DNA from: Exiguobacterium antarcticum DSM 14480
Lineage (GTDB): Bacteria; Bacillota; Bacilli; Exiguobacteriales; Exiguobacteriaceae
DNA: 64,000 nt
Direction: 5' to 3'
Assembly: GCF_000685865.1 (NCBI RefSeq)
Contig: NZ_JMKS01000003.1
Coordinates: 558,001-622,000 of the forward strand
Of this stretch, positions 5,233-49,903 are shown in pieces. Both the position numbers and the translations under genes were made by a program. The notes below the pieces were generated by a model, which saw nothing but the letters and a program-made list of their open reading frames with translations, ran no database searches and had not been told where the DNA came from. Each line of letters starts with the position of its first letter. Positions within the stretch are counted from its first letter, which is position 1.

Positions 5233-5541
5233 TCAAACTGTCTCTAAAAATGCTGTAACTTGTTCCGGTGTTTTTCGTTCTTTCCCGACATAACGACCTG
5301 TCTCTTCATTTTCACGGTAAGCGACAAAACTTGGAATGCCGAAGATATTCATTTCCTGGGCAATTTCAAGGTGCTCATCACGATCGACGTAATAAAAATT
5401 GAACTCACTAAACGTCTGTTCCATCTCCGGCATAAACGGGTCTAAAAACCGGCAATCCGGACACCAGTTGGCGGAAAAGAGAAATACAGAACTTTCTTGT
5501 TTGGCTTGATCAAATTGTGCTTTCGATTCTAATTTTTTCAT
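5233..5541 (-). CDS. ytpP: Thioredoxin-like protein YtpP
   Basis: 102 residues, the size of a single thioredoxin fold. The active site FSANWCPDCRFLDPFMPE lies at about residues 22-39, so the redox pair is CPDC rather than CGPC. The cis-proline loop is FGIPSFVAYR. It has no signal peptide and is cytosolic. It is probably a thiol-disulfide oxidoreductase of unknown partner. First of the ytpP-ytpQ-ytpR group. Confidence 0.9.
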   Translation of the reverse strand: MKKLESKAQFDQAKQESSVFLFSANWCPDCRFLDPFMPEMEQTFSEFNFYYVDRDEHLEIAQEMNIFGIPSFVAYRENEETGRYVGKERKTPEQVTAFLETV

Positions 5542-10915: not shown

Positions 10916-11431
10916 TCAACGTGGGTTGTCATTACGTTCGTAGATCGGGTTCATATATTCTGTAGTAGAATACAGGCGCGGTACGACGACATACAATATG
11001 ACAGCTGGTACAGCAATCAATAATAACATCAGTAACATCGGTAACCAGTAGACGACTTTTTGTTTCAAGTTATCTGAGTTGCTATCGATGTATTCTTTGA
11101 CACCATCGATTTTAGCAGCATCTGCACTCGTAAGTAATTTGCCACTGTCTGCGTTAAAGAAATGGATTTCACGTTTGATCGTAATAAAGATTCCGTCACG
11201 AACTGTTTCGATTACAGCGATACCGCCGATAACCTGTTCACCTTTTTCACCAGTGAACGTTTTTGGATCTTCAATCTCAACAGATCCTTTTTTATAATCG
11301 TAATGTGTACTCTTCAATTCCTCGTCAAGTGCTTTTTGCATAGATGACGTATCAATCGCAGCGAATACCGATTGCCCGATACTCAATGCGAGAAAGAGTG
11401 CCGTTACGAAGGCTAAGCTTTTTTGCCACAT
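10916..11431 (-). CDS. Exported, C-terminally membrane-anchored protein of unknown function
   Basis: 171 residues. The N-terminus MWQKSLAFVTALFLALSIG followed by QSVFA is a Sec signal peptide with probable cleavage after VFA. An extracytoplasmic domain of about 100 residues follows, and then a hydrophobic helix WLPMLLMLLLIAVPAVILYV with a short polar tail. I do not recognise the family. The ATG at 11431 is chosen because AAAGGGGG lies eight bases upstream; a TTG two codons earlier is too close. Its natural terminator appears to be disrupted by the adjacent IS3 element. Confidence 0.65.
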   Translation of the reverse strand: MWQKSLAFVTALFLALSIGQSVFAAIDTSSMQKALDEELKSTHYDYKKGSVEIEDPKTFTGEKGEQVIGGIAVIETVRDGIFITIKREIHFFNADSGKLLTSADAAKIDGVKEYIDSNSDNLKQKVVYWLPMLLMLLLIAVPAVILYVVVPRLYSTTEYMNPIYERNDNPR

Positions 11432-32293: not shown

Positions 32294-32549
32294 CAAAAAA
32301 AACCGGTCTCCGCCCCTAGGAATAGGGACGAAAGACCGGTTTGTCTTCCGCGGTACCACCCACGTTGTCTACTACAGCAGACCACTTGATTCACAGATAA
32401 CGGTGTGAAGGACCGGATGCACTACTTGTTTTTCACGCATCATGCTCCCTGACGAGTTCACGGACGATTCCGACTGGTTTGCACCGACCACCAGCTCTCT
32501 AAACGGAATGACTCCCTTACTACTTCAGTTCGTCGCAATGGACTATCTA
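32294..32549 (-). promoter_or_regulatory. T-box riboswitch controlling leuS (probable CUC specifier)
   Basis: On the minus strand, stem I contains AGAGAGCTGGTGGTCGGTGC and ACCAGTC, the usual 5' landmarks. The invariant T-box GGGTGGTACCGCGG lies at 32348-32361. Just downstream is the terminator AAACCGGTCT ... AGACCGGTTTTTTTT. The likely specifier is CTC (32454-32456) in GTGAACTCGTC, a leucine codon matching the gene. Uncharged tRNA-Leu should stabilise the antiterminator. Confidence 0.93.
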
Positions 32550-40504: not shown

Positions 40505-40692
40505 TGAAAAAAACCTTTCCATGTCCAAAAATGGTCAGGGAAAGGTTGTGCGTTCTTCCTTTACCCTCTTATCGTTCGAAGTGTTTACTTCGCTTCAGGA
40601 GAGCACCTTTTCCTACATTAATGATGAAATTAACATAAGACGGTTGCCGGGTTTCTTCGGGCCTTGTTCCCTCCACCTGCTCAGAATAAGAG
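40505..40692 (-). promoter_or_regulatory. SAM-I (S-box) riboswitch with terminator, controlling metK
   Basis: On the minus strand the aptamer starts CTCTTATTCTGAGCAGGTGG, then AGGGAACAAGGCCCGAAGAA and ACCCGGCAACC, the S-box core. P1 closes with CGATAAGAG near 40565. It is followed by a terminator AACCTTTCC ... GGAAAGGTTTTTTT at about 40505-40550. SAM binding should switch metK off. Confidence 0.96.
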
Positions 40693-48044: not shown

Positions 48045-48437
48045 TTATTTTTGGAAGTTTGATTTTTCAATCCATTCTTCCAATTTGCCTTTTAACACGT
48101 TGAAGCCAGGAGCTTCTTCTTGTTTGAAAGCAGGACCTGCATCGCGACGGCCAGTGTTTTTGCGTGGGCCTTTAGCGCGTGCTTCGCGTTTTGGAGCTTC
48201 CTGTGTAGCTTTGATCGAAAGCTTCATTTTTTTGTTAGCTTCGTCGATGTCGAGAACTTTAACAGTTACTTCATCGCCAACTTTTACGTAATCGTTGATG
48301 TCTTTTACGTAATCGTGTGAGATTTCTGAGATGTGGACGAGACCTTGTGTTTGCTCGTCAAGTGCTACGAAAGCACCAAAGTTTTGAATACCAGTTACTT
48401 TACCAGTAACAACTTGGTCTTTTTCAAAGTTTGCCAT
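48045..48437 (-). CDS. yugI: S1 RNA-binding domain protein YugI (GSP13-like)
   Basis: 130 residues. A single S1 domain at residues 6-75 (VVTGKVTGIQNFGAFVALDE, GLVHISEISHDYVKDINDYV, VKVLDIDEANKKMKLSIK) followed by a basic tail (KREARAKGPRKNTGRRD). In B. subtilis the homologue is general stress protein 13 and associates with ribosomes. AGGGAG ribosome-binding site. Divergent from the putative stress sRNA. Confidence 0.93.
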   Translation of the reverse strand: MANFEKDQVVTGKVTGIQNFGAFVALDEQTQGLVHISEISHDYVKDINDYVKVGDEVTVKVLDIDEANKKMKLSIKATQEAPKREARAKGPRKNTGRRDAGPAFKQEEAPGFNVLKGKLEEWIEKSNFQK

Positions 48438-48471: not shown

Positions 48472-48500
48472 ATAATAACATACTTTTTACGGATGGTAAA
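48472..48500 (-). promoter_or_regulatory. Putative sigma-A promoter for yugI
   Basis: Minus strand TTTACC, 17 bases, TATTAT. Confidence 0.5.
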
Positions 48501-48516
48501 AAATATTTTTCAAATT

Positions 48517-48542
48517 GTTTATTTTTTATTTTACAAGGGAAC
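48517..48542 (+). promoter_or_regulatory. Putative sigma-B promoter for a small RNA
   Basis: GTTTAT, 14 bases, GGGAAC; ten or eleven of twelve positions agree with GTTTAW-N12-15-GGGWAW. It faces away from yugI and has no ORF with a start signal downstream, but a strong terminator follows 40 bases later. Confidence 0.45.
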
Positions 48543-48547
48543 AAATT

Positions 48548-48610
48548 AGTAGCAAGACTTCAAGTATTCCCCCTGATTCTGCCGGACTTTTCGAGTCCGG
48601 CCCTTTTTTT
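48548..48610 (+). ncRNA. Putative small regulatory RNA (about 63 nt) with C-rich anti-SD segment
   Basis: It starts about six bases after the sigma-B-like -10 and ends in a classic terminator: GCCGGACT, TTTCG, AGTCCGGC, then CC and seven T. The unstructured 5' part holds TATTCCCCCTG (48565-48575), complementary to ribosome-binding sites of the AGGGGGAAT type. That is the design of Gram-positive sRNAs such as RsaA or RsaE/RoxS. No coding potential was seen. Existence and regulation are inferred from sequence only. Confidence 0.45.
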
Positions 48611-48680
48611 GTCCTGTTGCTGTTTTTATTGAGGAAACAAGAGAAAAAAAGGGTCGAAAAACAAGTTCGTACATGCATTA

Positions 48681-48804
48681 AGGACAGGTCCGGCCTGCTC
48701 GCTTTCCGCGGACAAGCCACCATGCCGCTTCAGATGCGTTGCATCTTCCAGGGTCATGATGGACTTGTTTTTCCGCAGGAGTCAAGCATGACCTCACCTG
48801 TCCT
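48681..48804. repeat. Intergenic structured repeat, copy A
   Basis: Outer arms AGGACAGGT and ACCTGTCCT are perfect complements. Inside are CTGCTCGCTTTCCGCGG and CCGCAGGAGTCAAGCA, then an imperfect ACAAGCCACCATG/CATGATGGACTTGT hairpin. The core CTCGCTTTCC ... AGGAGTC is shared with the element at 62.7 kb, although the flanking arms differ. No T-run, so it is not a simple terminator. The rest of the gap 48611-48859 holds nothing else recognisable. Confidence 0.65.
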
Positions 48805-48859
48805 AGCGTAAAGGAAATCGCATCATGAAGCAATCAAAAAATTAAGAGCATTCGCCGGT

Positions 48860-49903
48860 TTATAAATCGTCAAATCCGTTTGCATCCGTCACCTTCGCAT
48901 ACGAACGTGATTTTTGCTCGAAGAAATCCGATTTCGTCGCATTCATCGAGTCGTCGGAATACGCCCGGATCCATGGCATGACGTCTTCGTCATGCCCCTC
49001 ATACAGATCGTCGAGTCCGATGACACGGAGACGTTTGTTCGCTAGATATTTCACGTAGTCACGCATCTCACTGACGTCAAGTCCGTCCAGATCACGCAGG
49101 ACGTATTCACTCCACTCGATCTCAAGATCCACTGCGCGCTCGAATGTCGTATAGACGAACTTCGTGAATGAACCGTCGGCGTCGATTTCCGGATGTTCCG
49201 TCAAGACGGCACGTAACAGCTGGCTGATGAAGTACGCGTGTTGTAATTCATCACGCTGGATGTAGCTGATCATCGTCGATGTCCCCACCATCTTTTGGTG
49301 ACGCGCTAAGTTATAGAAGAAAGCAAACCCGGAATAGAAATTGATTCCTTCGAGAACGATCGAGGCGACCAGTGACTTCGCAAAGTTTTCCGGCGTCCGG
49401 TCGTTTTGGAAATCTTCGTATAAATCAAGAATAAAGGCATTCCGTTTCATTACCATCTCATCGTCTTTAGCAATGTCAAAGATCCGGTTTTGTTCGGACA
49501 ACGGGACGAGACTTGAGAGTACGTAACTGTAAGATTGGTTATGCACGACTTCTTGCTGGGCGATGATGGCGAGAATCGCATGAATCGAGGCGTCTGACGT
49601 AAACATCGCCGATTCCAAAATGTAACGGGTTTGGACGGAATCGAGAATCGATAACAGACCGATGATCCGCTTAAAGGCATCCTGTTCCCGTTCGCTCAAT
49701 TGATTCCACTGTTGCATGTCTTTTGACATCGAGATCTCGTCCGGAATCCAGAAGTTCGATAATAACTGTTTATAGATGGAATAAAACTGAGGATAGGCAA
49801 GATCGTTCCAGTTGACGATCGAACTCGTTTCGCCGCCAATGATCGCGGTCGCCCGATTTGGATGACGGGCATCAAGCAGTTTGATTTTTTGTAGTTGTTC
49901 CAT
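48860..49903 (-). CDS. nrdB: Ribonucleotide reductase class I, radical-bearing beta subunit
   Basis: 347 residues from the ATG at 49903 (GGGAG nine bases upstream); the long ORF extension is discarded. The beta subunit houses the dinuclear metal centre and tyrosyl radical. Ligands are seen in LSILDSVQ (Asp), QQEVVHNQSYSY (Glu, His, and the Tyr four residues after His), VLEGINFYSGF (Glu) and RDELQHAYF (Glu, His). All canonical residues are present, so a standard Tyr-radical type. The C-terminus should dock on NrdA. Overlaps the flavodoxin gene by 32 bases. Confidence 0.93.
   Translation of the reverse strand: MEQLQKIKLLDARHPNRATAIIGGETSSIVNWNDLAYPQFYSIYKQLLSNFWIPDEISMSKDMQQWNQLSEREQDAFKRIIGLLSILDSVQTRYILESAMFTSDASIHAILAIIAQQEVVHNQSYSYVLSSLVPLSEQNRIFDIAKDDEMVMKRNAFILDLYEDFQNDRTPENFAKSLVASIVLEGINFYSGFAFFYNLARHQKMVGTSTMISYIQRDELQHAYFISQLLRAVLTEHPEIDADGSFTKFVYTTFERAVDLEIEWSEYVLRDLDGLDVSEMRDYVKYLANKRLRVIGLDDLYEGHDEDVMPWIRAYSDDSMNATKSDFFEQKSRSYAKVTDANGFDDL

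Follow-up and report, generated by a model that had tools for sequence, protein, structure and literature searches.

Divergently from yugI, Exiguobacterium antarcticum DSM 14480 carries a short intergenic stretch with the outline of a stress promoter and of an intrinsic terminator. Does this stretch encode a regulatory RNA, which sigma factor would transcribe it, and on what would the RNA act? The locus lies in a 64,000-nucleotide stretch of DNA, here called the window, for which a first-pass annotation had proposed a sigma-B-dependent sRNA carrying an anti-Shine-Dalgarno C-tract. Based on the comparisons presented here, we conclude that the stretch is very probably a real and old gene for a tiny regulatory RNA, and we consider it likely that the product is a stand-alone, sigma-B-dependent, C-rich and trans-acting sRNA with a predicted length of about 63 nt.

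The elements that had been described are all in place by direct reading: GTTTAT and GGGAAC are separated by 14 nt, a short 5' stretch with CCCCC follows, and the perfect 8-bp terminator stem is completed by a run of seven T at 48604-48610 (Table 1). The statement that no open reading frame with a start signal lies between promoter and terminator holds as well, as the overlapping reading frames extend through one or the other. Moreover, the C-tract has five C in one genus and six in the other, and any reading frame would thus be broken. Since yugI and the ribonucleotide reductase gene are both encoded on the minus strand, the terminator is not theirs. The promoter word alone is within chance: The SigB-like motif GTTT[ACT][AT]-N12..15-GGG[AT]A occurs three times in the window, and 60 dinucleotide shuffles contain it 1.9 times on average and at most 6 times. 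The combination of a SigB-like word with a perfect GC-rich terminator no more than 110 nt downstream is found once in the window and in none of the 60 shuffles.

Table 1. Features of the sRNA locus and its neighbours (positions refer to the window).
Feature	Position	Strand	Basis
sigma-B-type -35, GTTTAT	48517..48522	+	sequence; GTTT in 19/19 first-genus genomes; second genus GTTTTA/GTTTCA/GTTTGA
sigma-B-type -10, GGGAAC	48537..48542	+	GGGAA in 19/19 first-genus genomes; second genus GGGTAA
predicted sRNA, ~63 nt	48548..48610	+	start deduced from the -10 box, 3' end from the terminator
conserved core AAGACTTCAAGTATTCCCCCTGATTC	48554..48579	+	invariant in 19/19 first-genus sequences; second genus differs by one extra C
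CCCCC tract	48569-48573	+	loop of a weak predicted hairpin
intrinsic terminator, perfect 8-bp stem and T7	48581..48610	+	sequence; compensatory changes between genera
stem arms GCCGGACT / AGTCCGGC	48581-48588 / 48594-48601	+	100% match
yugI / GSP13, S1-domain RNA-binding post-transcriptional regulator, divergent	48045..48437	-	NF005973 171 bits (cut-off 148), NF040579 145 bits (cut-off 117)
sigma-A-like yugI promoter, TTTACC-N17-TATTAT with TG	48472..48500	-	pattern scan; faces away from the sRNA promoter
nrdF-like gene for a ribonucleotide reductase beta subunit, convergent, on the 3' side of the sRNA	48860..49903	-	NF007184 462 bits

Strong evidence for a gene comes from its conservation in a family of two genera, which is Exiguobacterium in the broad sense. 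A 181-base query matched all 19 genomes of the first genus with 82-100% identity. In each of the 19 alignments, the left part is the start of yugI, and the GTTT box, the GGGAA box and 31 bases, AAGACTTCAAGTATTCCCCCTGATTCTGCCG, are identical; past about position 48615, soon after the T-run, the sequence is not conserved. The -10 region of the yugI promoter is kept in these alignments, the -35 region is variable. In the second genus, 20 places were taken, 18 of which are the RNA and two (L022 and L026) other matches. The 18 copies are preceded by one of the three -35 variants, a spacer of 13 nt and GGGTAA, they read AAATCAAGCAAGACTTCAAGTATTCCCCCCTGATTCC followed by a terminator of other sequence (GCTAGGC/GCCTAGC), and yugI adjoins them in every case. 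The 19th genome of this genus carries the same RNA core in L080. AGTATTCCCCC is present in all 38 family genomes. Between the genera, the core AAGACTTCAAGTATTCCCCC(C)TGATTC is constant and the terminator stem differs by compensation. All 77 cells of the seven outer pairs in 11 distinct sequences are paired; four of the seven pairs are changed on both sides, with 13 such cells as compared to 4.6 in shuffles, and these reflect few events, i.e. the genus split and one clade. Slid stem structures used for comparison fall apart. RNAalifold gave no structure for a MAFFT alignment of 30 sequences, probably owing to the misalignment of terminators that differ in length. Conservation of the C-tract and the terminator in related genomes had been set as one test of the proposal, and both are kept in 38 of 38; together with the compensatory changes in the terminator, this provides strong support for an sRNA gene. 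Our alignments show that the predicted unit of promoter, core and terminator is kept across the Exiguobacterium family.

The conserved promoter form GTTT-N13/14-GGG(A/T)A agrees with what we take to be the SigB consensus, and sigB was found above the cut-off in all 38 family genomes. In the genome of E. antarcticum itself, GTTTAG-N14-GGGAAT is present about 900 bp upstream of sigB, where rsbV would start (rsbV and rsbW were assigned by position only). Similar boxes are located 850-900 bp upstream of sigB in two relatives; two of the three upstream stretches contain one further match to the motif elsewhere. The conserved promoter, the matching motif upstream of the species' own sigB and the presence of sigB throughout the family all favour the proposed sigma-B dependence, which is very likely as judged from these sequences. 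The accessible part of the review PMC7522486 prints no SigB consensus letters. We also considered that GGGGGAATAC might serve as the -10 region of a sigma-B promoter on the other strand; inspection by eye revealed no GTTT at the right spacing in either genus or in the loci outside the family.

Does the RNA have relatives beyond Exiguobacterium? At permissive settings, the best Rfam match of a 261-base search is RF02451, ncr1241, with 29.4 bits (E 0.0031). As the gathering score of 60 bits is not reached, we do not file the locus as a member of RF02451. None of the 38 family genomes has a match over the cut-off, and 13 have any match at E<=0.01. In a sample of 398 Bacilli genomes drawn evenly, 37 matched at this threshold (13 of them in the family) and five exceeded the cut-off; in a control set of 14, B. 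subtilis alone was positive. Two matches in the second genus (L044 and L046), equally weak as the match at our locus, are plain terminators. The Exiguobacterium RNA and ncr1241 resemble each other in length, in a 5' stretch containing (A)GUAUUCCCCC before a 3' terminator, with UUC-AGUAUUCCCC aligned, in the position next to yugI, shared with Bacillus-type genomes, and in the sigma-B-type boxes found upstream there (GTTTAA-N14-GGGTAT in L056). They differ in that the Exiguobacterium RNA has one base fewer between AAGACUU and GUAUU, UGAUUC where ncr1241 has a U-rich linker, and another terminator sequence. Bridging forms of the core, AAGACTTTCTCGTATTCCCCCTG, occur elsewhere, as do AAGACTTTCTCG forms. 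For the 24 RF02451 loci outside the family, yugI is encoded inside the 3-kb locus in 13; not all of the 24 have the core, as it is missing from L077, one of the loci inspected (all but L066, L074 and L078). In G188 and G256, the RNA is placed between yugI and an aminotransferase-type gene; in the second Exiguobacterium genus, a gene of this type stands one gene farther along (genes named by eye). The Exiguobacterium RNA is thus probably a distant homologue of B. subtilis ncr1241, its closest relative, which the first-pass annotation had not named. This assignment rests on a chain from the own genus via the second genus to the Bacillaceae, combined with synteny and the promoter, rather than on one strong score.

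This chain was extended by scanning named records for the reverse complement of AAGRCTTN{3,4}GTATTCCCCC. At least 118 stretches were obtained, which have the core in common by construction, but not the promoter, the terminator or the neighbours. In at least 94 of them, a terminator folds with -8 kcal/mol or better or yugI is present in the stretch; one (L112), from a metagenome-assembled genome (MAG) of another phylum, looks like chance and was set aside, leaving at least 93, of which at least nine are Exiguobacterium by their core and at least 84 are outside the family. Among the matches listed, the other 24 stretches have by definition neither terminator nor yugI, and the 12 of these with known titles are all non-Bacillales; one of the 24, L198, combines promoter with core and is a possible true member. 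Among the matches listed, a terminator of -8 kcal/mol or better is present at 83 of the 84 outside loci, the strict promoter GTTT-N14..18-GGG[AT]A at only 41; further loci have GTATA or GTTTA with GG[ACT][AT]A. In the same set, yugI is found in the stretch at 69 of the 84 loci and within 800 bp at 47, in 46 of these 47 on the opposite strand. The named records overlap with the sample of 398 genomes (e.g. B. methanolicus PB1). Our comparison shows that the putative unit of promoter, core and terminator recurs in the Bacillaceae, often in the same gene neighbourhood. Three records titled Chryseobacterium sp. ISL-80, Paenibacillus sp. FSL R5-0490 and Roseburia sp. 1XD42-34 (L104, L119 and L158) contain Bacillaceae-type copies with a terminator, the first two also with yugI; thus, these titles may be wrong.

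A sequence profile of promoter and core, built from 52 loci including eight of Exiguobacterium, detected 71 of the 398 genomes at E<=0.01, among them all 38 of the family. Outside the family, 19 of 360 genomes were found at E<=1.6e-6, and 14 weak matches from 2.8e-4 upward were discounted; counted by handle, 12 of the 19 genomes had contributed training rows. As the profile misses places in G303 and G045 that have both the core and yugI, 19 is a lower bound. When Exiguobacterium was held out of the training set, a profile from 44 loci ranked the right place first in 19 of 19 genomes of the second genus (E 2.5e-5 to 1.2e-3). In the first genus, it found the right place in 14 of 19, weakly (E 0.002-0.18) and in G016 behind a better wrong match; it misses the genome of E. 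antarcticum and four others. Taken together, our findings suggest that ncr1241, a little-studied sRNA of Bacillus, is part of a sigma-B-linked family that is older and wider than its Rfam entry indicates and in which a core of about 20 nt is nearly fixed. ncr1241 reportedly stems from a paper of 2010. Our literature search found no paper naming ncr1241, and a search for yugI together with an sRNA in B. subtilis returned nothing related as judged by the listing; the part of PMC3574147 that was available does not list ncr1241. For Exiguobacterium, PMC10837837 gives numbers of predicted sRNAs in the portion at hand.

The outside loci also raise the possibility that a part of this wider family is transcribed by a forespore sigma factor rather than by sigma-B. 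In several loci (L101, L114, L119, L141, L142, L202 and similar), the promoters read GTATA-N14/15-GG(T/C)(T/A)A, which presumably resembles the sites of forespore sigma factors rather than of sigma-B. Such forms, i.e. GTATA-N14/15-GG(N)(A/T)A, belong to Cytobacillus- and Mesobacillus-type loci. Among 50 carriers outside the family (50 of 82 handles, among the matches listed), 46 have sigB; the four that lack it are all found among the 28 with a non-GGG -10 region and none among the other 22. However, 24 of these 28 do have sigB, one of the four sigB-less carriers is a MAG, and genome completeness is given for none of the four. The idea that the promoter type follows the loss of sigB was mostly not borne out in the 50 genomes. 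Moreover, the sigma-F consensus used here is the one we assume, and these promoters have no bearing on Exiguobacterium itself. We therefore regard forespore control of part of the wider family as possible but rather doubtful. As a separate observation, the RNA core (AGTATTCCCC) in L062, L063 and L064 (~1465-1575) is a perfect inverted copy of the -10 region of the sRNA promoter (GGGGAATACT).

Among known sRNAs, SbrA of Listeria and RsaA of Staphylococcus are under sigma-B control, and RsaA also has a C-rich motif. The locus matches sbrA at only 14.5 bits (cut-off 45), and the Rfam search gave no match to RsaA at E<=10 at the locus. The resemblance to RsaE/RoxS that had been noted is confined to the C-rich mode of action: RF01820 has no match over the gathering score and none at E<=10 at the locus, and none of the 38 family genomes has RsaE over the cut-off. 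As far as the consulted parts of the literature describe them, RsaE/RoxS (RF01820), FsrA and CsfG have C-rich regions for which pairing with Shine-Dalgarno sites has been proposed or shown (PMC4409812, PMC8464778); in contrast to the Exiguobacterium RNA with its one CCCCC tract before the terminator, they have several such regions and they respond to other regulators (ResDE, Fur, sigma-F/G). The RNAs under sigma-B control that are named for B. subtilis in the accessible part of PMC8464778, S1326, S1290 and SR7, are antisense RNAs. RnaC/S1022 is a trans-acting sRNA in Bacillus as well, but it is sigD-linked, encoded next to cypB and regulates abrB according to the portion of PMC4366234 available to us; on this basis, it was rejected as the identity of ncr1241. 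Weak matches to the RsaE family with 35.6-39 bits (cut-off 79) exist away from the locus in L293 (G005), L294 (G022), G027 and G035, and these are possible distant RsaE relatives in Exiguobacterium.

How would such an RNA act? RNA polymerase with sigma-B would start near 48548 under general stress and stop at 48610. The GUAUUCCCCC stretch could then pair with the G-rich Shine-Dalgarno regions of several mRNAs and block ribosome loading, with the specificity provided by the invariant flanking bases as in other C-rich sRNAs of the Bacillota. By analogy, an anti-Shine-Dalgarno action of the C-tract is plausible. The first 33 nt are predicted to be only weakly structured: In folds of three divergent copies, a weak 5' hairpin of six pairs precedes the terminator and carries the C-tract in its loop, and an RNA begun nine bases earlier adopts another fold with four of the five C unpaired. 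If real, a conserved trans-acting sRNA of the sigma-B regulon would open up a post-transcriptional level of control within the general stress response.

The five target matches that had been proposed in the window all exist, with a complementarity of 9 nt to leuS, the aminopeptidase gene and a 61-residue gene and of 8 nt to the HAD phosphatase and an exported-protein gene, but the exact matches are not conserved except for the last one. In relatives, the leuS site reads GAGGAGG (3/3) and the 9-nt match is lost, only the G-run is kept at the aminopeptidase site (2/2), the site of the 61-residue gene reads GAGGAGGAATT (1/1), and that of the HAD phosphatase varies (three relatives). The leader of the exported-protein gene, AAAGGGGGAA(A/T)TTGGGG, is kept in all four genomes compared (three of three relatives); 18 of 100 controls in which CCCCC was kept and the flanks were shuffled pair as well. 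Its 171-aa product (10916-11431, minus strand) has no NCBIfam match. For the whole-start duplex, the real core was better than 96 of 100 controls for leuS, 78 for the 61-residue gene, 71 for the aminopeptidase and 53 for the HAD phosphatase. The value for leuS is about what is expected for the fourth best of 51 genes, i.e. those of the 64 called window genes that had starts from at least three genomes. Taken over these 51 genes, the real core is not preferred (mean z -0.17). Three genes (at 5233, 37170 and 58241) have z below -2 with leuS fourth at -2.0, so that the number near or below -2 is at most little above the approximately one expected. The targets in the window are thus not convincing. 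Across the family, the 10-nt pattern GGGGGAATACN{1,9}ATG occurs at 27 places in 22 of 38 genomes as compared to 17 for the backwards control; the genes differ and none is conserved family-wide, the most recurrent start being that of an acetyltransferase-like gene (named by eye) in four first-genus genomes. Neither the window genes nor this pattern yielded a conserved target. In the second genus, L219, L224 and L242 share a GntP-like permease start (by eye) with TTTAGGGGGAATACTCAATG, which has an 11-nt complementarity to the core.

What we find most interesting is that an sRNA with a stress promoter is encoded divergently from a GSP13-type gene across families. The NCBIfam matches of yugI describe an S1-domain post-transcriptional regulator, GSP13, and the CvfD/Ygs/GSP13 family of RNA-binding proteins. 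According to the consulted parts of the literature, heat, salt, ethanol, starvation and oxidative stress all increase the level of the GSP13 protein, which is located on ribosomes when cells grow (PMC6832287), and PMC9334652 describes it as unknown whether CvfD, a relative of GSP13, has a direct effect or mediates sRNA pairing. The RNA might accordingly be real and sigma-B-dependent but act mainly via a protein, with the core as a putative binding site, e.g. for GSP13, making it a partner or decoy of that protein rather than a Shine-Dalgarno antisense RNA. The divergent linkage to an RNA-binding regulator points in this direction, as do the core, which exceeds the anti-Shine-Dalgarno tract in length, and the fact that no Shine-Dalgarno target is conserved beyond the controls. 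However, the linkage could be explained by plain inherited gene order, and among the matches listed, yugI is found within 800 bp at 39, farther away at 18 and not at all at nine of the 66 outside loci that are flanked by 900 bp or more on each side. We consider action mainly via a protein unlikely. It is similarly only a tentative idea that a post-transcriptional stress module of two parts, the RNA and GSP13/YugI encoded divergently from it, exists in Exiguobacterium and the Bacillaceae: Sigma-B would make the RNA, GSP13 would hold or present it, and together they would damp the translation of mRNAs with strong Shine-Dalgarno sequences in general stress. If true, this would give the GSP13/CvfD proteins a cognate sRNA, and the link makes an sRNA-mediated action of these proteins directly testable.

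The RNA is very unlikely to act in cis on yugI by leader pairing or via the divergent promoter. The promoters are back to back in the window and closely spaced in many relatives, but the predicted RNA has no overlap with the leader of yugI, elsewhere the RNA is up to 6 kb away from yugI and sometimes on the same strand, and the real core forms no better duplex with the start region of yugI than controls that retain CCCCC do (mean z -0.08 over 62 loci), so that the yugI mRNA was rejected as a target. That a promoter-like word, no rarer than chance by itself, merely happens to precede a stray terminator without any RNA product is hardly credible given the conservation with compensatory stem changes, the recurrence of the whole unit in the Bacillaceae and the orientation of both neighbours on the other strand. 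A trans-acting sRNA under sigma-B control thus is the reading that we prefer.

Two further observations concern the surroundings. Between the sRNA terminator and the stop of the ribonucleotide reductase gene, an imperfect palindrome-like element with the arms AGGACAGGT ... ACCTGTCCT occupies 48675-48812; it is present in 18 of the 19 first-genus alignments (absent from L020) although the preceding sequence varies, and it is a single copy in its own genome at E<=1e-6. Finally, leuS is preceded by a T-box leader at 32321-32542, and a SAM riboswitch is located at 40566-40692 of the window; both are on the minus strand and exceed the Rfam gathering score.
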